In this document: positions 32,601 through 42,211 of the stretch, piece after piece | How positions within the stretch are numbered: position 1 is the first letter of the stretch | Layout: each line of letters starts with the position of its first letter | Source of the DNA: Ramlibacter pallidus | GTDB taxonomy: Bacteria > Pseudomonadota > Gammaproteobacteria > Burkholderiales > Burkholderiaceae_C | DNA: 64,000 nucleotides | Assembly: GCF_015070875.1 (NCBI RefSeq) | Contig: NZ_JADDIV010000002.1 | Span: 682,001 to 746,000 of the forward strand | Reading direction: 5' to 3' | Notes under the pieces: generated by a model | What the model was told of the DNA's origin: nothing | Seen by the model: only the letters and a program-made list of their open reading frames with translations | The model's database searches: none | Made by a program: the position numbers and the translations under genes

Positions 32601-33455
32601 ATGCACCTGTCCACGGTCGAAACGGTCCTCGAGTACCAGGTCCTTTCGCCCACCCACTTCTGCTTCAACATCGAGGCGGCGCACTGGCCGACGCAGGAGA
32701 TCCATGGGGAGCAGCTCTCCATCTCCTCCGGCGTCACGCCCCACAGCTGGGCCGATCCGCGCAGCGGCAACCGCTTCATCCGTTTCGACGCCCAGCCCGG
32801 TCCGCTGCGCGTGGCCTACAAGGCCGAAGTGGAAGTGCACACCCCGCCGCCCGACACCTCGCTGCGCGAGCAGCCGGTGGGGGAGGTGCCGGACGAGATC
32901 TTCCCGTACCTGCTGGCCACGCGTTACTGCGAGTCCGACGTGCTGTGCGGCGACGTGCTGCGCCTGTTCGGCAACCTGCCGCCGGGGTTCGCGCGCGTGC
33001 GGGCCATCGAGGAATGGATCCGCGGCGAGATCCGCTACCAGCCGGGCAGCACCAATTCCAACAGCACGGCGCAGGAGGTGTTCGAGCAGCGCGCCGGCGT
33101 CTGCCGCGACTTCGCGCACCTGGGCATCACCTTCTGCCGTGCGCTCAACATCCCGGCGCGCATCGTGGTGGGCTATGTCTGGTTCGACGAGCCGCCGCAG
33201 GACTTCCATGCGGTGTTCGAGGCCTGGCTCGATGGCCAGTGGGTCCTGTTCGACCCGACCGGCATGGCGCCGGTGGACCGGCTGGTGCGCATCGGCACCG
33301 GCCGCGATGCCAAGGACGTGGCGTTCGCGACCATGTTCGGCCAGCTGCAGATGACGCGCAAGGAAGTGACGGTGCTGGAGCACGACGCCCGGCCGACCGG
33401 CGCGCCCCGGCCGGTGGCGGCACCGGCGCTGGCACGCGTGGCCGCGCCCGCCTAG
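32601..33455 (+). CDS. Transglutaminase-like family protein
   Basis: 284 residues. Catalytic triad Cys168 (AGVCRDFAHL), His203 (QDFHAVFEAW), Asp218 (FDPTGM). An N-terminal beta domain with the bacterial transglutaminase-like N-region precedes it. Such proteins are cysteine peptidases or amidases; no signal peptide, so cytoplasmic. GGAG lies eight bases before the ATG, and TCCTAC 82 bases upstream. Stops converge with a four-base overlap on the aldolase gene. Confidence 0.88.
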   Translation: MHLSTVETVLEYQVLSPTHFCFNIEAAHWPTQEIHGEQLSISSGVTPHSWADPRSGNRFIRFDAQPGPLRVAYKAEVEVHTPPPDTSLREQPVGEVPDEIFPYLLATRYCESDVLCGDVLRLFGNLPPGFARVRAIEEWIRGEIRYQPGSTNSNSTAQEVFEQRAGVCRDFAHLGITFCRALNIPARIVVGYVWFDEPPQDFHAVFEAWLDGQWVLFDPTGMAPVDRLVRIGTGRDAKDVAFATMFGQLQMTRKEVTVLEHDARPTGAPRPVAAPALARVAAPA

Positions 33456-34207
33456 TCCTTGTACGAAGGGTCGAGCTTGTCCAGCTTGCGCAGCAGCGCG
33501 GGCCAGGCGATGTTCGCGCCCTGTCCGGCGGTGACGGTCTTCATCACCTGCGCCATGCCTTCCAGGATCTTCGGGTTGACGTAGACCAGTTCGCCGCCGG
33601 CCTGCGCATCGATCTGGATGCGGCAGGTGTTCTCGAAGGTGTACATCGAGAGGAAGGCATCGGGCACCGTGCGCCCGATCGTGAGCAGGCCGTGGTTGCG
33701 CAGCATCAGGAAGTTCTTGCGGCCCAGGGCGGCCTGTAGCCGCGGCTTCTCGTCGTCGCGCAGCGCCACGCCCTCGTACTCGTGGTACGCCAGCGAGGCC
33801 AGCACGAAGGTGCTCTGCTGCGAGATGGGCAGGATGCCGGCCTTCTGCGCGCTGACCGCCACACCGGCGCGGCTGTGCGTGTGCAGCACGCAGCCGGCGT
33901 CGTCGCGCACCTGGTGGATGCAGCTGTGGATGGTGAAGCCGGCCGGGTTCACCGGGAAGGGCGAGGCTATCAGCTTGTTGCAGGCCTGGTCGACCTTCAC
34001 CAACGAGGACGCGGTGATCTCGTCGAACATCAGGCCGTAGGGGTTGATCAGGAAGTGGTGCTCGGGCCCGGGAATGCGCGCGCTGATGTGCGTGAACACC
34101 AGGTCGCTCCAGCCGTACAACGCCACCAGCCGGTAGCAGGCGGCGAGGTCCACGCGCAGCTGCCATTCCTCGGCGCTGACGACTTCGCGCACAGACGCGA
34201 TGTTCAT
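33452..34207 (-). CDS. Class II aldolase/adducin family protein
   Basis: 251 residues. Zinc-ligand histidines of the fold: HTH (His109, His111) and RNHGLL (His172). In fuculose-1-phosphate aldolase a catalytic Glu sits about 19 residues before the first His; here that position is Gly90 by my alignment, so aldolase activity may be lost or changed (adducin-like). Overlaps the HD gene by four bases (ATGA) and ends at the transglutaminase gene. Together with the HD protein and the AraC gene it faces a transporter and aldehyde dehydrogenase, suggesting a role in a degradative pathway. Substrate unknown. Confidence 0.88.
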   Translation of the reverse strand: MNIASVREVVSAEEWQLRVDLAACYRLVALYGWSDLVFTHISARIPGPEHHFLINPYGLMFDEITASSLVKVDQACNKLIASPFPVNPAGFTIHSCIHQVRDDAGCVLHTHSRAGVAVSAQKAGILPISQQSTFVLASLAYHEYEGVALRDDEKPRLQAALGRKNFLMLRNHGLLTIGRTVPDAFLSMYTFENTCRIQIDAQAGGELVYVNPKILEGMAQVMKTVTAGQGANIAWPALLRKLDKLDPSYKD

Positions 34208-34782
34208 TTCGCTTCCTCCTTCAGGTAGATCGATTGCTTCGGCTGCGCCATCACGCGTTGCAACAGGGGCAGGAATTCCTCGATCGGCAGCGTCTCCGCC
34301 TGCGGATCGAAGGCCGGGTTGTCGTAGAGCGCGCAGAACTCCTCGGTGCGGGCGTAGTGCGGATGGTCGCGGAAGCGGTCGCGCATGTTGCGGTCGAGCC
34401 CGAGGTGGTGGAAGAAGTAGTGGCCCTGGAAGATGCCGTGGTTCTGCACCATCCAGTGGTTGGCCTCGCTCACGAAGGGCTTGACGATCGCCGCGGCGAT
34501 GTCGGGGTGGTTGAAGGAGCCGAGCGTGTCGCCGATGTCGTGCAGCAGCGCGCAGACGACGTACTCTTCGTCACGGCCGTCGCGCAGGGCGCGCGTGGCG
34601 GTCTGCAGCGAGTGGGTGTAGCGGTCGACCGGGAAGCCGCCGTAGTCGCCCTGCAGGATCTGCAGGTGCTTGACGATGCGTTCGGGCAGCGCCTGCGCGA
34701 ACGGCATGAATTCGCCGGCGATGAGCTGCCAGTCGGCGGCGGTGCTGTCCTGCATGCGGACGAACTGGGCGCGCGCGTTCAT
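34204..34782 (-). CDS. HD-domain protein resembling PhnZ/MIOX diiron oxygenases
   Basis: 192 residues. The order of metal ligands is His57, His81-Asp82 (LLHDIG), His92, His115, Asp154. His57 to His81 is 24 residues, as I recall for PhnZ, and the flanking text YTHSLQTATRAL and NHPDIAAAIVKPF fits the PhnZ/TmpB and inositol-oxygenase subgroup of HD proteins, which oxidise C-H bonds with a mixed-valent diiron centre. HD phosphohydrolases are the alternative. It is coupled to the aldolase gene (ATGA) and lies 68 bases after the AraC gene. Substrate unknown; no phosphonate genes nearby. Confidence 0.7.
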   Translation of the reverse strand: MNARAQFVRMQDSTAADWQLIAGEFMPFAQALPERIVKHLQILQGDYGGFPVDRYTHSLQTATRALRDGRDEEYVVCALLHDIGDTLGSFNHPDIAAAIVKPFVSEANHWMVQNHGIFQGHYFFHHLGLDRNMRDRFRDHPHYARTEEFCALYDNPAFDPQAETLPIEEFLPLLQRVMAQPKQSIYLKEEAK

Positions 34783-34850
34783 GGGTCGTGTCTCCTCGGG
34801 TGGATGCGCCACTGTGCGGGAACCCGCCTTCGTGCGTTGTCGCCGCCGTG

Positions 34851-35792
34851 TCAGCTGCCGCGGAATTCGCTCGGGCTCTTGCCCGTGTGGTCGCGGAACA
34901 CGCGGCTGAAGTGCGACGGGTTGCCGAAGCCCCAGGACAGGGCGATGTCGGTGATCGGCCGGGCGTGCGGGCCGCCCTGCTGCAGGTCGCGGATGCAGGC
35001 CTGCAGGCGCAGCCGCTGGATGTAGCCGGCGATGGATTCGCCCTCGCCCCCGAACGCGTTGTAGAGGTGGCGCCGGCTGCAGTTCAGCGCCCGCGCGATG
35101 GCGTCGACGGACAGGCTCGGATCGCGCAGGTGCTGCTGCACATAGGCGCGGATGCGGTCGCGCAGGGCTTCGCGCTGCGACACGCCGGTGTCCTGGCCGG
35201 CCAGCTCCATCAGCGAGAGCTTTACCAGCTGCTTGATCAGCTCGCCGGCGCCCTGCGCCGCCGCGGCGCTCATGTTCGGCAGCTCGAGATAGGTGTTGCG
35301 CATGGTCTCCAGCGCCACGCGCGAGATGCCGCTGGCGCCCAGGCGCGTGGCCATGGCGCCGTCGAAGCGCAGGCCGCGTTCGGCGACGCCTTCCTTGGGC
35401 ACCATCACGATCAGGTGGTCGACGCGCTCCGGGTTGCCGACCTGGTAGGTGCCCGTGGTGTCGTAGATGACCCAGGCGCCGTCGCGCGCGCAGGCTTCGC
35501 GGCCCTGCTGCTGCACCAGCGCGCTGCCCTGCCAGGGCGCGACGATCTTCAGGTACGCGACGTCGCTGGTGCGCACCATGGAAGCGGTGCGCACGACGCG
35601 GTGCCGGTTGGCTTCCAGCCGCGTGAGGATCACGTCGCCGGCCTGCGACGAGGCCATGTGGCCGTCGAACTCGGTGTCGCCGTACAAGTCGGACTGCAGG
35701 CCGCCGAAATGGCTGGACACCCACTCGCACCACTGCGGCGCGCGGTCGCGCGGCGTCACGATGTCGGTGCTGAGGAGGGTGGACGCGGCCAT
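34851..35792 (-). CDS. AraC-family transcriptional regulator (FeaR-like N-domain)
   Basis: 313 residues. The C-terminal third holds two AraC helix-turn-helix units (SLSVDAIARALNCSRRHLYNAF and ITDIALSWGFGNPSHFSRVFRD). The N-terminal part resembles the AraC-binding-like domain of FeaR, a phenylethylamine regulator (GDVILTRLEANRHRVVRT). Divergent from the ABC transporter operon over a 171-base gap and upstream of HD and aldolase, so it probably controls both sides. Inducer unknown. Confidence 0.9.
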   Translation of the reverse strand: MAASTLLSTDIVTPRDRAPQWCEWVSSHFGGLQSDLYGDTEFDGHMASSQAGDVILTRLEANRHRVVRTASMVRTSDVAYLKIVAPWQGSALVQQQGREACARDGAWVIYDTTGTYQVGNPERVDHLIVMVPKEGVAERGLRFDGAMATRLGASGISRVALETMRNTYLELPNMSAAAAQGAGELIKQLVKLSLMELAGQDTGVSQREALRDRIRAYVQQHLRDPSLSVDAIARALNCSRRHLYNAFGGEGESIAGYIQRLRLQACIRDLQQGGPHARPITDIALSWGFGNPSHFSRVFRDHTGKSPSEFRGS

Positions 35793-35963
35793 GGCCGGGC
35801 CATTATGGGCCGCCGTTCGGCGCGCGCCCTTGGGCCCAGCCCTTGCGGGAAAACCCTAGGCCGCTTGCACGCGCGGAGTAGTGCTTTCTGCCCGCACAGC
35901 AAAGCGGCGGCGCGCGGCCGTTCCTACCATCCCCAGCGTCTGCAACCCGCTGAGGAGACATCC

Positions 35964-37172
35964 ATGGTCCACCGCCTTTCCGGCACCAACCGCCGGCAGT
36001 TCATCCAGGGCGCCGCCGCCGTCGGCGCCGCCGCGATCGCACCGCAGCTGGCGGCGCAGAACGCCCCCGTGCGCGTGGGCTATGCCATCGCCCGCACGGG
36101 CCCGTGGACCGGCGGCGCCCAGGTGAGCCAGGAGCCGAACTTCCTGCTGTGGGCCGACCAGCAGAACGCGCAGGGCGGGCTGGACGTCAAGGGCGTCAAG
36201 CGCCGCGTGGAGCTGATCAGCTCCGATGACCGCAGCGACGTCGAGACGGTGGTGCGCACCTACGAGAAGCTGATGGGCAGCGACAAGGTGGACCTGGTGC
36301 TGCCGCCGTGGGGCAGCAACGCCAACTTCGCGGTGGCGCCGCTCGCCAACCGCTTCGGCTATCCCTTCCTTGCGCCCACCGCGCTGTCGCGCCGGCTGGT
36401 CGAGATGAAGCTGCCGTACTTCTTCCTGCTGCTGCAGCAGCCCAAGCCGATGTGCGACGCGCTGGTCGACATGCTCAAGGCCAACGGCGTGAAGACGGTG
36501 GCGGTGGTCTACGTGGACGACCTGTTCGGCCTGGAGAACTATGCGGCGCTGAAGGTGGCCCTGGCGGGCAGCGGCATCACCATGGTGCAGGACACCAGCT
36601 ATCCGGGTGGCGTGAAGGACCTGTCGCCGACGCTGCGCTCCATCAAGGACAAGAACCCCGATGCCTTCGTCGGCTTCACCTACCCGCCCGACACCATCCT
36701 GGCCAGCAAGCAGGCCAAGGAGATCGGCTTCAACCCGAAGTTCTTCTACGCGTCGGTCGGCACCGCCTTCCAGCTCTATCGCAACGTGATGACGCCGGCC
36801 GGCGCGGAGGGCGTGCTGGGCATGGGCTCGTGGAACGCCAAGACCAGCCCGGGCGCCAAGGCCTACTTCGACGCGCACACGAAGAAGTTCGGCGGCAAGG
36901 AGCCGGACCGCTGGGCGAGCGGCCATGCCTGGGCGGGGATGGAGATCCTGACCGCCGGCGTGAACAAGGTGGGCCTGGACCGCAAGGCCCTGCGCGACTA
37001 CATCGCCAACACCACGCACAAGACCATCATCGGCGACGTGAAGTTCACCGGCAGCGAGAACACGGCCACCCCGGGCACCGTGGGCCAGTGGCAGAACGGC
37101 GAGTTCGAGGTCGTCTGGCCGCCGAAGGTGGCGACGGCGAAGCTGGTGACGAACAAGCCGGCGTGGAAGTAA
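35964..37172 (+). CDS. Branched-chain-amino-acid-type ABC transporter, substrate-binding protein
   Basis: 402 residues with a twin-arginine signal (NRRQFIQGAAAV). Periplasmic binding fold type I (LivK family): VGYAIARTGPWTGG, LMGSDKVDLVLPPWGS, VAVVYVDDLFGLENYAAL. The domain binds amino acids or many aromatic and aliphatic acids, so substrate cannot be assigned. GAGGAGA precedes the ATG; TCCTAC lies about 37 bases upstream. First gene of the importer operon. A palindrome lies between it and the permease. Confidence 0.92.
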   Translation: MVHRLSGTNRRQFIQGAAAVGAAAIAPQLAAQNAPVRVGYAIARTGPWTGGAQVSQEPNFLLWADQQNAQGGLDVKGVKRRVELISSDDRSDVETVVRTYEKLMGSDKVDLVLPPWGSNANFAVAPLANRFGYPFLAPTALSRRLVEMKLPYFFLLLQQPKPMCDALVDMLKANGVKTVAVVYVDDLFGLENYAALKVALAGSGITMVQDTSYPGGVKDLSPTLRSIKDKNPDAFVGFTYPPDTILASKQAKEIGFNPKFFYASVGTAFQLYRNVMTPAGAEGVLGMGSWNAKTSPGAKAYFDAHTKKFGGKEPDRWASGHAWAGMEILTAGVNKVGLDRKALRDYIANTTHKTIIGDVKFTGSENTATPGTVGQWQNGEFEVVWPPKVATAKLVTNKPAWK

Positions 37173-37199
37173 CCCGCACCGACCCCCAACCCACCGACA

Positions 37200-37226
37200 C
37201 GTCATTCCCGCCTCCGCGGAATGACG
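37200..37226 (+). repeat. Palindromic dispersed element between binding protein and permease genes
   Basis: CGTCATTCC and GGAATGACG pair as a nine-base stem around CGCCTCCGC. It matches a widespread proteobacterial repeat with the ends GTCATTCC. As mRNA it would fold 28 bases after the binding-protein stop. Such hairpins often protect the upstream message and lower downstream expression, as in malE-malF. It also covers one possible start of the next gene. Confidence 0.7.
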
Positions 37227-37235
37227 GAACACAGC

Positions 37236-38126
37236 ATGTCCCTCGGCGCCTGGACCGAACTCATCGCCTCCGGACTCATCACCGGAGGCATCTACGCGCT
37301 CGTCGCGCTCGGCCTGAACCTGCAGTACGGGCTGATGCGCATCCTGAACATCGCGCACGGCGAGTTCCTGATGGTGGGTGCGTACCTCACGTGGATGGTG
37401 CAGACCTCCTTCGGCATCTCGCCGCTGGCGATGGTGCCGCTGTCCTTCCTCATCCTGATGGCGGCCGGCCTCGCCATCCACTGGCTCTGCTTCCGGCGGC
37501 TGACCGCCACCTCGCCCAACCTCGACATCTTCGAGGCGCGCGGCCTGATGGTGGCCTTCGGCCTGATGTTCCTGGTGCAGAACCTGGTTTCGTGGGCCTG
37601 GGGCGGTGACCTGCGCGGCTACGACTACCTGACCGAGCCGGTGAAGTTCGGCGGTGCGCAGTTCGCGGCCAACAAGCTGCTGGTGTTCGCGCTCGCGCTG
37701 CTGTTCGCCGGCGCGATGATCGTGCTGCTGCGCCAGACCCTGCTGGGCAAGGGCGTGCGCGCGCTGATGCAGTCGCCCACCGGCGCGCAGCTGGTGGGGA
37801 TCAACACCCGCGTGCTGCACCCGCTGATGTTTGGCATCGGCCTCGGACTCTCGGGCGTGGCCGGCGCGCTGCTGTCCATGGCCTACACGATCTCGCCTTC
37901 CATGGGCGAGCCCTACACCGTCACGGCGCTCATCGTCATCACGCTGGGGGGCTTCGGCAGCATGAGCGGCGCGCTGGCCGGCGGGCTGCTGCTGGGCGTG
38001 GTGGAAGCGATCGGCATGCACTTCACCAATCCCTCGCTCAAGGCGCTGCTGTCGTACAGCGTGTTCATCGCCGTGCTGCTGCTGCGGCCGGAAGGGCTGT
38101 TCGCACGCAAGGGGCGCAAGGCATGA
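37236..38126 (+). CDS. livH: Branched-chain-amino-acid-type ABC transporter permease (LivH family)
   Basis: 296 residues with about eight membrane segments; family signatures GLNLQYGLMRILNIAHGEFLM and ALMQSPTGAQLVGIN. Start at 37236 rather than 37221 because the earlier ATG lies in the arm of the palindrome. The four-base overlap with livM shows coupling. Substrate follows the binding protein and is unknown. Confidence 0.92.
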   Translation: MSLGAWTELIASGLITGGIYALVALGLNLQYGLMRILNIAHGEFLMVGAYLTWMVQTSFGISPLAMVPLSFLILMAAGLAIHWLCFRRLTATSPNLDIFEARGLMVAFGLMFLVQNLVSWAWGGDLRGYDYLTEPVKFGGAQFAANKLLVFALALLFAGAMIVLLRQTLLGKGVRALMQSPTGAQLVGINTRVLHPLMFGIGLGLSGVAGALLSMAYTISPSMGEPYTVTALIVITLGGFGSMSGALAGGLLLGVVEAIGMHFTNPSLKALLSYSVFIAVLLLRPEGLFARKGRKA

Positions 38127-39139
38127 CGTCACGTCAACTGCTCGTTCGCGACCTGCTGGTCCTGTTCGGCTTCACGGGCTGGGCGCTCGCGCTGCCGTAC
38201 TGGGGCAGCGAGTTCATCGTCTCGCTGGCGCTCACCTGCCTGATGTACGTCGCGCTGTCCTCCAGCTGGGCGCTGTTCTGCGGCACCACGCGCTACCTGT
38301 CGCTGGCCACGTCCGCCTTCTTCGGCATCGGCGCGTACACCTGCGCGCTGGGACTGGAGAAGTTCGGCTGGATCCAGTCCGTTGCCCTGGGGGCCGGCAT
38401 CGCCGTCGCCGTCGCGGTCGTGATGGGCGCCGCGGTGCTGCACCTGCGCGGCACCTATTTCGCCGTGCTCACCTTCGGCATGACGGAACTGATCCGGCAT
38501 GCGATCACCTACTGGGAGAAGAGCGTGACCGGCACCGTCGGCCGCGTGCTCGCCGTGGTGCCGGAGCGCGACACGATCTACGGCACGGTGCTGGGGCTCG
38601 CCGTACTGGCGGTCGCCGTGTCGATCGTCGTGCGCCGCACGCGCTTCGGCCTGGCGCTGGCCGGCATCGGTGCCGACGAACAGCGGGCGCAGACGCTGGG
38701 CGTGAACACGAAGTGGGTCAAGCTGGCGGGTTTCGCGATGACCGCGGCGTTCGCCGGCGCCATGGGCGCGGCGATGTCGGTGCGCTGGACCTACATCGAT
38801 CCGCACACCGTCTTCAATCCCTTCATCGGCTTCCAGACCGTGCTGATCGCCCTGATCGGCGGCGCGCTCACCCTGTGGGGTCCTCTGATCGCGGCGATCG
38901 TCTTCAGCCTGCTGGCCGAGACGCTGCGGCTGCAGGCGCCGCAGGTCTACATGATGTCGCTGGGCCTGCTGCTGATCCTGTCGGTGCTGTACCTTCCGGG
39001 CGGGCTGGCTTCGCTGCGCTGGGAGACCTTCCGCGGCTGGCGCGACGACGTGAAGGGCTGGTGGAAGGAACGCCGCCACGAGTGGAGCGGCGACAAGGAA
39101 CGCGCCAAGCGCCGTGCACGGGAGGCCCGCCTTGCCTGA
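38123..39139 (+). CDS. livM: Branched-chain-amino-acid-type ABC transporter permease (LivM family)
   Basis: 338 residues, nine or ten membrane segments, with family texts LATSAFFGIGAYTCAL, RGTYFAVLTFGMTELI and GVNTKWVKLAGFAMTAAFAG. The C-terminus is long and charged (WRDDVKGWWKERRHEW). Starts by ATGA overlap with livH, and ends inside the start of the livG ATPase gene. Second membrane subunit of the importer. Confidence 0.92.
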   Translation: MTSRQLLVRDLLVLFGFTGWALALPYWGSEFIVSLALTCLMYVALSSSWALFCGTTRYLSLATSAFFGIGAYTCALGLEKFGWIQSVALGAGIAVAVAVVMGAAVLHLRGTYFAVLTFGMTELIRHAITYWEKSVTGTVGRVLAVVPERDTIYGTVLGLAVLAVAVSIVVRRTRFGLALAGIGADEQRAQTLGVNTKWVKLAGFAMTAAFAGAMGAAMSVRWTYIDPHTVFNPFIGFQTVLIALIGGALTLWGPLIAAIVFSLLAETLRLQAPQVYMMSLGLLLILSVLYLPGGLASLRWETFRGWRDDVKGWWKERRHEWSGDKERAKRRAREARLA

Positions 39140-39916
39140 CACCCTGCTCCTCGAAGCGCGCGACGTGACGGTGCGCTTCGGCGGCCTGGTCGCCGTCGAC
39201 AACGTCAGCGCCAGCCTGCGCGCCGGCGAGCTGGTGGGCATCATCGGCCCGAACGGCGCCGGCAAGACCACCTTCTTCAACGCCGTGTCCGGCGTGCTGC
39301 AGCCGACCTCGGGCCAGCTGCTGCTGGAAGGCGACGACCTCACCGGCAGGGGCCCGCACCAGTTCGCGAAGCACGGCCTGGCGCGCACCTTCCAGACCCC
39401 GCGCGTGTTCGCCGACATGACGGTGCTGGCCAACATCGAGTTCGGCCTGAAGTTCGCCGGCCGGCGGCCGCGCAAGTACTGGCTGTGGGGCGAGGAGGCG
39501 TCGGTGCCGTGGGCGCTGCGCGACGCGCAGCGCATCCTGGAGCTGATCGGGCTGCAGGCGCAGGCGGCGCTGCCGGCCGGGTCCATCACGCCCTCGCAGC
39601 AGCGCCTGCTGGAGATCGGGATGGCGCTCGCCACGCGGCCACGGCTGCTGCTGCTCGACGAAGTGGCCGCCGGCCTGACCGAGGCGGAGATCGAGAACAT
39701 GGCGGCGCTGGTGAAGCGCCTGCGCGACGAGCTGAACCTGACCGTGGTGTGGATCGAGCACGCGGTGCGCACGCTGCTCAAGCACGTGGAGCGCGTGATC
39801 GTGCTGCACCAGGGCCGCAAGATCGCCGACGGCACGCCGGCCGAGGTCACGCGCAACCCGGAGGTGATCGAGGCCTACCTGGGCGACGAGATGGTGGAAG
39901 AGGGCGAGGTGATCGC

Positions 39917-39920
<4 letters not shown>
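39132..39920 (+). CDS. livG: ABC transporter ATPase (LivG family)
   Basis: 262 residues from TTG. Walker A GPNGAGKTT, LivG-specific loop TFQTPRVF, signature-like region SITPSQQRLLEIGMALA (in place of LSGGQ), Walker B LLLLDEVAAGL, switch His in WIEHAV. TTG was chosen because GGGAGG lies six bases upstream; a GTG at 39114 would lengthen it by six residues. Overlaps livM by eight and livF by four bases. The unusual signature (SITPSQQ rather than LSGGQ) is noted. Confidence 0.9.
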
Positions 39921-40744
<824 letters not shown>

Positions 40745-40756
40745 CCAGGAGTACCC

Positions 40757-42211
40757 ATGTCCGATCTTTCCATGCTGATCAACGGCCTCAAGGTCACCGC
40801 GGAGAAGGGCGCCTTCTTCGAGCGCCGCAACCCGCTGGACGGCACCGTCGCCACGCGCGCGCCGGCGGCCTCCGCGGCCGATGCCGTGATGGCGGTCGAG
40901 GCCGCCGCCGAAGCCTTCAAGACCTGGAGCGAGACCGGCCCGAGCGAGCGCCGCATGCTGCTGCTGAAGGCGGCGGAGAAGCTCGAGGCCAAGTTGCCGC
41001 AGTTCGTCGAGGCGGTCGCCGCCGAGACCGGCGCCACCGGCATGTGGGCCGGCTTCAACGTGATGCTGGCGGCGGGCATGATCCGCGAAGCCGCGTCGCT
41101 GACCACGCAGGTGGCGGGCGAAGTGATCCCCTCCGACATCCCTGGTTCGCTGTCGATGGGCGTGCGGCAGCCCGCCGGTGTCGTGCTCGGCATCGCGCCA
41201 TGGAACGCGCCGATCATCCTCGGCGTGCGGGCCATCGCCACGCCGCTCGCCTGCGGCAACACCGTGATCCTCAAGGGCAGCGAGAACTGCCCGCGCACCC
41301 ACCAGCTGATCGCCGAGTCCTTCGCGGAAGCGGGCTTCCCGGCGGGGGTCGTCAACTACATCACCAATGCGCCGCACGAGGCGGGCATGGTGGTGGAGGC
41401 CGTGGTGTCGCATCCCGCCGTGCGCCGCGTCAACTTCACGGGTTCCACGCGGGTGGGCAAGCTGATCGCGCAGACCTGTGCCAAGTACCTCAAGCCGGCC
41501 GTGCTGGAGCTCGGGGGCAAGGCGCCGCTGGTGATCCTGGACGACGCCGACCTCGACGACGCGGTGAACGCGGCGGCCTTCGGCTGCTTCGCCAACAGCG
41601 GCCAGATCTGCATGAGCACCGAGCGCATCATCGTCGACGAAAAGGTGGCCGACGAGTTCGCGCGCAAGTTCGCGGCCAAGGCGAAGTCGCTGCCGGTGGG
41701 CGATCCGCGCAAGCCGGACCCCGTGGTCCTGGGCAGCGTGATCGGCATGCCGACCGTGGAGCACTGCAATGCACTGCTGGAGGATGCGTTGTCCAAGGGC
41801 GCCAAGCTGCTGTGCGGCGGCAAGTCGGAGAACACGCTGATGCCGGCCACCGTGCTGGACCACGTGACGCCCGCCATGCGCATCTACCACGAGGAGAGCT
41901 TCGGCCCGGTGAAGGGCATCGTCCGCGTGCGCGGGGTGGAGGAGGCGATCGCCTGTGCGAACGACAACGAGTACGGGTTGTCGTCGGCCGTGTTCGGGCG
42001 CGACATCGCGCGCGCCTTCAACGTCGCCCGCAAGATCGACTCGGGCATCTGCCACGTCAATGCGCCGACCGTGCACGACGAAGCGCAGATGCCCTTCGGC
42101 GGCGTCAAGGGTTCCGGCATCGGCCGCTTCGGGGGCCGCGCCGGCATCGCGGAGTTCACCGAGCTGCGCTGGATCACCGTGCAGACGACGCCGCGCCACT
42201 ATCCCTTCTGA
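40757..42211 (+). CDS. NAD(P)-dependent aldehyde dehydrogenase (aromatic-aldehyde-like)
   Basis: 484 residues. Catalytic Cys in SGQICMSTER, general-base Glu in LELGGKAP, Asn in APWNAP, cofactor loop FTGSTRVGK. C-terminus PFGGVKGSGIGRFGGRAGIAEFTELRW resembles vanillin and salicylaldehyde dehydrogenases, which suggests an aromatic or bulky aldehyde. It is the last gene of the importer operon, so it probably acts on a product from the imported substrate. Substrate not proven. GAGT precedes the ATG. Confidence 0.9.
   Translation: MSDLSMLINGLKVTAEKGAFFERRNPLDGTVATRAPAASAADAVMAVEAAAEAFKTWSETGPSERRMLLLKAAEKLEAKLPQFVEAVAAETGATGMWAGFNVMLAAGMIREAASLTTQVAGEVIPSDIPGSLSMGVRQPAGVVLGIAPWNAPIILGVRAIATPLACGNTVILKGSENCPRTHQLIAESFAEAGFPAGVVNYITNAPHEAGMVVEAVVSHPAVRRVNFTGSTRVGKLIAQTCAKYLKPAVLELGGKAPLVILDDADLDDAVNAAAFGCFANSGQICMSTERIIVDEKVADEFARKFAAKAKSLPVGDPRKPDPVVLGSVIGMPTVEHCNALLEDALSKGAKLLCGGKSENTLMPATVLDHVTPAMRIYHEESFGPVKGIVRVRGVEEAIACANDNEYGLSSAVFGRDIARAFNVARKIDSGICHVNAPTVHDEAQMPFGGVKGSGIGRFGGRAGIAEFTELRWITVQTTPRHYPF

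Follow-up and report, generated by a model that had tools for sequence, protein, structure and literature searches.

Do the genes gathered at one locus of Ramlibacter pallidus form a single catabolic pathway, or do two systems share a site there? The locus occupies positions 33452–42211 of a 64,000-nucleotide stretch, hereafter the window (assembly GCF_015070875.1, contig NZ_JADDIV010000002.1, positions 682,001 to 746,000, forward strand), and carries genes for an HD-domain protein, an aldolase-fold protein, an AraC-family regulator, a five-gene ATP-binding cassette (ABC) importer, and an aldehyde dehydrogenase (ALDH). A first-pass annotation, made from the sequence of the window, listed these genes, all of which were found where it had placed them, and proposed that they serve one pathway. 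Comparison with other genomes does not support that proposal, and the locus resolves into two separable modules. The first is araC, divergent from the gene for the solute-binding protein (SBP) of the importer, which is followed by livHMGF and the ALDH gene; the second is the HD–'aldolase' gene pair, which often has a divergent CRP/FNR-type regulator gene beside it. The HD protein belongs to an uncharacterised clade whose members are putative HD diiron oxygenases, often coupled to a putative aldolase-fold metalloenzyme. The explanation preferred here, in which an importer and dehydrogenase driven by AraC lie beside an O2-using diiron HD enzyme and its aldolase-fold metalloenzyme partner, is given a probability of roughly 0.58.

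Two separable modules at one chromosomal site

Among 60 genomes of the genus, the importer (SBP, E ≤1e-60) occurs in 24 and the HD gene (E ≤1e-15) in 11, with both in five. Thus 19 of the 24 importer genomes yielded no HD and six of the 11 HD genomes no importer, although many of these genomes are drafts, in which an absent gene may be unassembled. In loci from Variovorax, Caenimonas, Rhodoferax, and elsewhere, the flanks fetched around the HD–aldolase pair, of up to 9 kb, contain no importer, and in four genomes of the taxonomic family (G263, G464, G499, and G543) HD and SBP are on different contigs or more than 1 Mb apart. Conservation of the aldolase and HD genes beside the importer in relatives had been named beforehand as a test of the single-pathway reading; in relatives, importer and HD proved separable.

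All five genus genomes with both modules nevertheless have them at a single shared locus, with a CRP gene in between in G018, and synteny suggests that one chromosomal site hosts these genes in the genus. The common order, as in G009, is mnmG, a reductase-like gene, CRP, HD, the aldolase-fold gene, and a transglutaminase-like gene. In some genomes the importer block is also present at this site, and CRP, HD, or the aldolase-fold gene is variously missing: the block is found with all three in G018; with HD and the aldolase-fold gene in the window, G001, G022, and G030; with CRP and the aldolase-fold gene in G008, G023, G031, and G051; with the aldolase-fold gene in G028, G046, and G059; and with only the transglutaminase gene in G032, G044, and G056. 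In G010, G020, G021, G037, G057, and G058 the block lies elsewhere, with none of the site genes in the fetched stretch. Since HD and importer are separable across genomes, inherited synteny is the best account of why they lie side by side in the window. The modules may still be linked in function, most of all the importer block and the aldolase-fold gene, but a single pathway is not supported.

The HD protein groups with diiron oxygenases

The HD gene (34204–34782, minus strand) encodes 192 residues with an HD domain and is the only gene of its family in the window's genome. The ligand order H-HD-H-H-D read from the sequence at first pass is real: H57, H81-D82, H92, H115, and D154 are each present in 141/141 distinct homologues, and the order is the H, HD, H, H, D pattern described for HD-domain diiron oxygenases (PMC8177086). 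Fold comparison of the predicted model gives scores of 18.1 for PhnZ, 17.2 for TmpB, and 12.0 for MIOX, against 8.3 for the next chain, and hydrolases score far lower than these oxygenases in both profile search and fold comparison. By profile search, predicted fold, and ligand conservation, the protein groups with the oxygenases and not with the phosphohydrolases, as had been proposed.

PhnZ and TmpB are its closest characterised relatives. Unlike them, the HD protein lacks the glutamate of the YxxE substrate loop described for the PhnZ/TmpB subfamily (PMC8177086) and falls far under both curated cut-offs (33.7 versus 214.6 for TIGR03276 and 33.5 versus 300 for NF049941); and whereas PhnZ and TmpB go with a hydroxylase, the neighbours of HD are an aldolase-fold gene or beta-oxidation genes. 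Myo-inositol oxygenase (MIOX) is longer (241–258 residues in solved chains), with negligible sequence similarity to HD (E 0.74).

At E ≤1e-10, the protein family was detected in 72 of 397 sampled Pseudomonadota genomes and, within the taxonomic family, in 29 of 200. Plasmid matches with an annotation bear the name 'phosphohydrolase', 'HD domain-containing protein', 'inositol oxygenase family protein', or 'hypothetical protein'. Few HD-domain oxygenases are known: PMC8177086 names MIOX, PhnZ, and TmpB, and four versions of the PhnY/PhnZ-type pathway are described in PMC10574752. If the clade does consist of oxygenases, the common annotation would be wrong and an O2-dependent bond-cleaving step would be missing from many genome-scale models.

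An aldolase-fold partner without aldolase catalytic residues

The aldolase-fold gene (33452–34207, minus strand; 251 residues, class II aldolase/adducin fold, Aldolase_II domain) is coupled to HD through an ATGA overlap at 34207–34204, as noted at first pass and checked base by base; on its other side, it adjoins the transglutaminase-like gene. The accompanying label of 'class II aldolase' stands as regards the fold domain and three metal histidines, in that the FucA ligands H92, H94, and H155 align with H109, H111, and H172, which are invariant in 21 aligned rows. It does not extend to Glu73 and Tyr113, given as the catalytic residues of FucA (PMC11841055): Glu73 is replaced by Gly90 and Tyr113 lies opposite a gap, and aldol chemistry is therefore not to be assumed. 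Pyruvic oxime dioxygenase (POD), NovR, and TqaM, all aldolase-fold iron enzymes, share 22%–26% identity with the protein. An oxygenase or decarboxylase role, possibly Fe(II)-dependent, is likelier for it than an aldolase one. A literature search, with most subscription journals lying outside it, yielded no recognised description of this HD–aldolase pair; the recurring coupling of HD to an aldolase-fold protein that lacks aldolase catalytic residues offers a directly testable pair.

Neighbourhoods of the HD gene

HD loci were drawn from the window, the best 80 of at least 590 confirmed genome-contig loci, nine plasmid loci (of 15 matches), and 60 loci from genome matches. An HD gene was called in 149 of these 150 loci (all except L087), and the dropping of eight repeats left 141 distinct HD sequences, a sample weighted to close relatives and to Burkholderiales. 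The counts rest on home-made gene calls that miss genes at contig ends, and the blastp searches that identified hydroxylase, CRP, FadB, and Mpo1 neighbours used one to three query proteins for each, with more distant ones missed.

Among homologues of at least 70% identity (n = 86), the aldolase-fold gene is a same-strand neighbour in 44, a FadB-like or thiolase gene is a direct same-strand neighbour in 17, and in 33 a CRP/FNR-type gene is no more than three genes away; three loci (the window, L002, and L033) have araC and SBP. At 54%–70% identity (n = 36), six have the aldolase-fold neighbour and three an Mpo1-like gene, and at 30%–54% (n = 19) a TauD or PhyH hydroxylase gene is the direct neighbour in eight. 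The hydroxylase-plus-HD arrangement known from PhnY/PhnZ and TmpA/TmpB therefore holds for part of the wider HD family but not for the clade to which the window's protein belongs. Of the 141 loci, 59 fall outside every named context. No CRP/FNR box (TTGA-N6-TCAA, up to one mismatch) was matched upstream of HD in the 32 loci that pair it with a CRP gene. An ALDH gene lies within three genes of HD in only 4/86, which is about the estimated chance level, and this proximity was not used as evidence for one pathway.

Two loci with hydroxylase partners can be singled out. In L251 (6838–8576), a TauD-family gene that exceeds the TmpA cut-off (448.7 bits versus 400) is coupled to an HD gene of the window's family, and a glycine-betaine-type binding protein is encoded close by. 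The HD product reaches no more than 41 bits against TmpB and may serve a TmpA-like pathway as an alternative second enzyme. In L255 (7117–8591), a PhyH-family hydroxylase gene overlaps the HD gene start by four bases, giving a PhnY/PhnZ-like pair.

Contexts of fatty-acid and of keto- or hydroxy-acid metabolism recur around HD, in the form of the FadB-like and thiolase neighbours, Mpo1-like genes, and the genes of L222. An Mpo1-like gene adjoins HD in four of the 122 homologues of at least 54% identity: in L077 (8576–8911, with a PF06127 match), L081, L225, and L226 it lies directly upstream on the same strand, and two of these loci are in named Pseudomonas genomes. Mpo1 is a yeast 2-hydroxy-fatty-acid dioxygenase, according to a title cited in PMC13332142. 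In L222 (4877–10152), from another order of the same class, genes for a flavin-containing monooxygenase (FMO), an alpha/beta hydrolase, the aldolase-fold protein, HD, and a wax ester synthase/diacylglycerol acyltransferase (WS/DGAT) follow one another, which hints that the substrate is a lipid. The window's genome itself has a FadB–M20–thiolase–acyl-CoA dehydrogenase operon without HD (L218, 3362–12541), and the matching operon in other Burkholderiales holds HD. A 12.9-kb mobilizable plasmid of Sphingobium baderi SC-1, a strain reported to degrade 3-phenoxybenzoate (PMC11026547), has genes for the aldolase-fold protein, HD, and an alpha/beta hydrolase close to an ISPme1 transposase gene (L082, 5052–7353), as if the HD–aldolase cassette travels; its HD protein is annotated as a phosphohydrolase. 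The 1,4-butanediol operon PP_2047–2051 of P. putida, in which the hypothetical gene PP_2050 precedes a thiolase gene, was considered as a link and dropped: the relevant passages of PMC7090098 and PMC3325844 do not state that PP_2050 is an HD protein, and the HD genes of L077 and L081, both chromosomal loci of named Pseudomonas, sit in no such operon.

The importer module and its putative operator

The regulator gene araC (34851–35792, minus strand; AraC_binding_2 and HTH_18 domains) is the usual partner of the importer block; its product is FeaR-like but below the NF007243 cut-off (139.8 bits versus 199). On the plus strand follow the SBP gene (35964–37172; Peripla_BP_6, twin-arginine (TAT) signal) of a branched-chain-amino-acid-type (HAAT) importer, the permease genes livH (37224–38126) and livM (38123–39139; both BPD_transp_2), the ATPase genes livG (39132–39920) and livF (39920–40744; both ABC_tran), and the ALDH gene (40757–42211; Aldedh). 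The minus- and plus-strand sets had been described as facing each other; instead, they diverge from the 171-base araC–SBP gap. That the importer and ALDH genes form one tight operon agrees with their spacing apart from some 50 bases between SBP and livH.

The SBP gene occurs in 41 of 250 genomes of the taxonomic family (E ≤1e-80). Apart from the window, 40 importer loci were available, and 20 from other genera were compared. SBP, livH, livM, livG, and ALDH were called in every one of these; 14 also had livF, and 17 had araC in divergent orientation. Genome G022 has a second importer, 60% identical, with no ALDH called in the fetched stretch (L145).

Judged against solved structures, the ALDH is closest to salicylaldehyde and vanillin dehydrogenases, its best matches being 6qhn (2e-193), 9ihb (2.6e-193), and NahF, 4jz6 (7.3e-169), with which it aligns over near its whole length at 566–647 bits; the next-best structure is a 4-hydroxybenzaldehyde dehydrogenase at 1.3e-103. 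The Glu and Cys motifs, taken here to be catalytic, align as well. Unlike these enzymes, the window's ALDH shares its operon with a HAAT importer. On these matches, the oxidation of an aldehyde to an acid that the first pass had suggested is probable, and an aromatic-aldehyde uptake operon is plausible for the importer part, which matters less than the HD part. Free-standing importer blocks gave no clue to the substrate, either from the eight annotated flanking genes of L127 (amidohydrolase, NYN, DUF3025, M48, and a polar amino-acid-type ABC set) or from the one of L132 (a sigma-70 factor).

Within the araC–SBP gap lies a tandem direct repeat (35866–35882 and, 23 bases on, 35889–35905, plus strand), which may be the AraC operator. 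A direct repeat with 22–23 base spacing is present in this gap in 31 of 38 loci, against 1.28 on average and six at most in shuffled gaps. Single half-sites, allowing up to three mismatches, are no commoner in the window than chance predicts (18 against 17.8), and the half-site scan of the window gave no repeat copy between araC and HD.

Weighing the explanations

Under the two-module explanation, AraC would bind the tandem repeat and switch on the HAAT importer and the benzaldehyde-type dehydrogenase, allowing the cell to take in a small and probably aromatic aldehyde, or a compound that gives rise to one, and to oxidise it to the acid. The HD protein would, like PhnZ, TmpB, and MIOX, use O2 at a diiron centre and cleave the bond next to a hydroxylated carbon, with the aldolase-fold protein as a three-histidine metalloenzyme that acts before or after it. 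The CRP/FNR-type regulator gene, often divergent beside the pair elsewhere, is not in the window and would have been lost. A more speculative variant, possible albeit rather unlikely, has the 'phosphohydrolase' and the 'class II aldolase' as two misannotated iron oxygenases working in sequence. NovR forms an alpha-hydroxy acid from a keto acid; a NovR-like aldolase-fold enzyme would do the same, and the HD diiron enzyme would then cleave the product. The result would be an O2-dependent one-carbon-shortening cassette, with the aldolase-fold enzyme replacing the PhnY/TmpA hydroxylase.

Several observations weigh against the preferred explanation. The aldolase-fold gene is kept at the importer site without HD in seven genus genomes and in six of the 20 stretches from other genera, several of these having a CRP gene between it and araC, and it therefore need not work with HD. 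Pairing is absent from the distant band (0/19), and the label for it changes 14 times, at least five of them forced, on a quick HD tree built without a mixture model and with long-branch warnings; the pairing has thus been gained or lost several times. With three query hydroxylases, none was found as a direct HD neighbour in the 122 homologues of at least 54% identity, and in the YxxE loop the tyrosine is present in 76/141 homologues and the glutamate in 0/141. Adducin and 4xxf (which bears the name of a fuculose aldolase) match the aldolase-fold protein about as well as NovR does. The shuffle control for the repeat overstates the case, because the half-site was derived from the same sequences as were tested.

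That the importer brings in a substrate which HD and the aldolase-fold enzyme cut, leaving ALDH to oxidise the resulting aldehyde, is unlikely. The shared locus in five of five genus genomes, the mere 68 bases between araC and HD on one strand in the window, and the aldolase-fold gene at importer sites of other genera speak for such a pathway; however, inherited synteny explains the shared locus, no repeat precedes HD, and the two modules are frequently found singly and lie far apart in four family genomes. An alpha-oxidation role for the HD–aldolase pair, in which one carbon would be taken off 2-hydroxy or 2-keto acids (fatty or aryl) to let beta-oxidation or ring cleavage proceed, is possible, albeit doubtful. 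The FadB-like, thiolase, and Mpo1-like neighbours, the WS/DGAT and FMO genes of L222, and the folds of NovR and TqaM are consistent with it, but the beta-oxidation operon of the window's genome lacks HD and contexts vary widely, 59 of the 141 loci belonging to none of those named.

Cleavage of a C–P bond in a new phosphonate substrate is quite unlikely for HD. It would suit the kinship with PhnZ and TmpB and the TmpA-like gene beside the distant relative in L251; against it stand the missing YxxE glutamate, scores far under both curated cut-offs, the commoner FadB or thiolase neighbours, and the scanned locus proteins, none of which is phosphonate-gene-like except HD itself. The phosphohydrolase of automatic annotation is very unlikely, for all that HD matches the generic HD Pfam family, is so labelled in L082, and carries a two-metal motif described as no absolutely reliable sign of an oxygenase (PMC11203657): H92 and H115, the part of the oxygenase motif beyond H, HD, and D, are invariant, and hydrolases score far lower.

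Beyond the ALDH gene, the window continues with what are, by translation, presumably mnmG, rsmG, and parA/parB.

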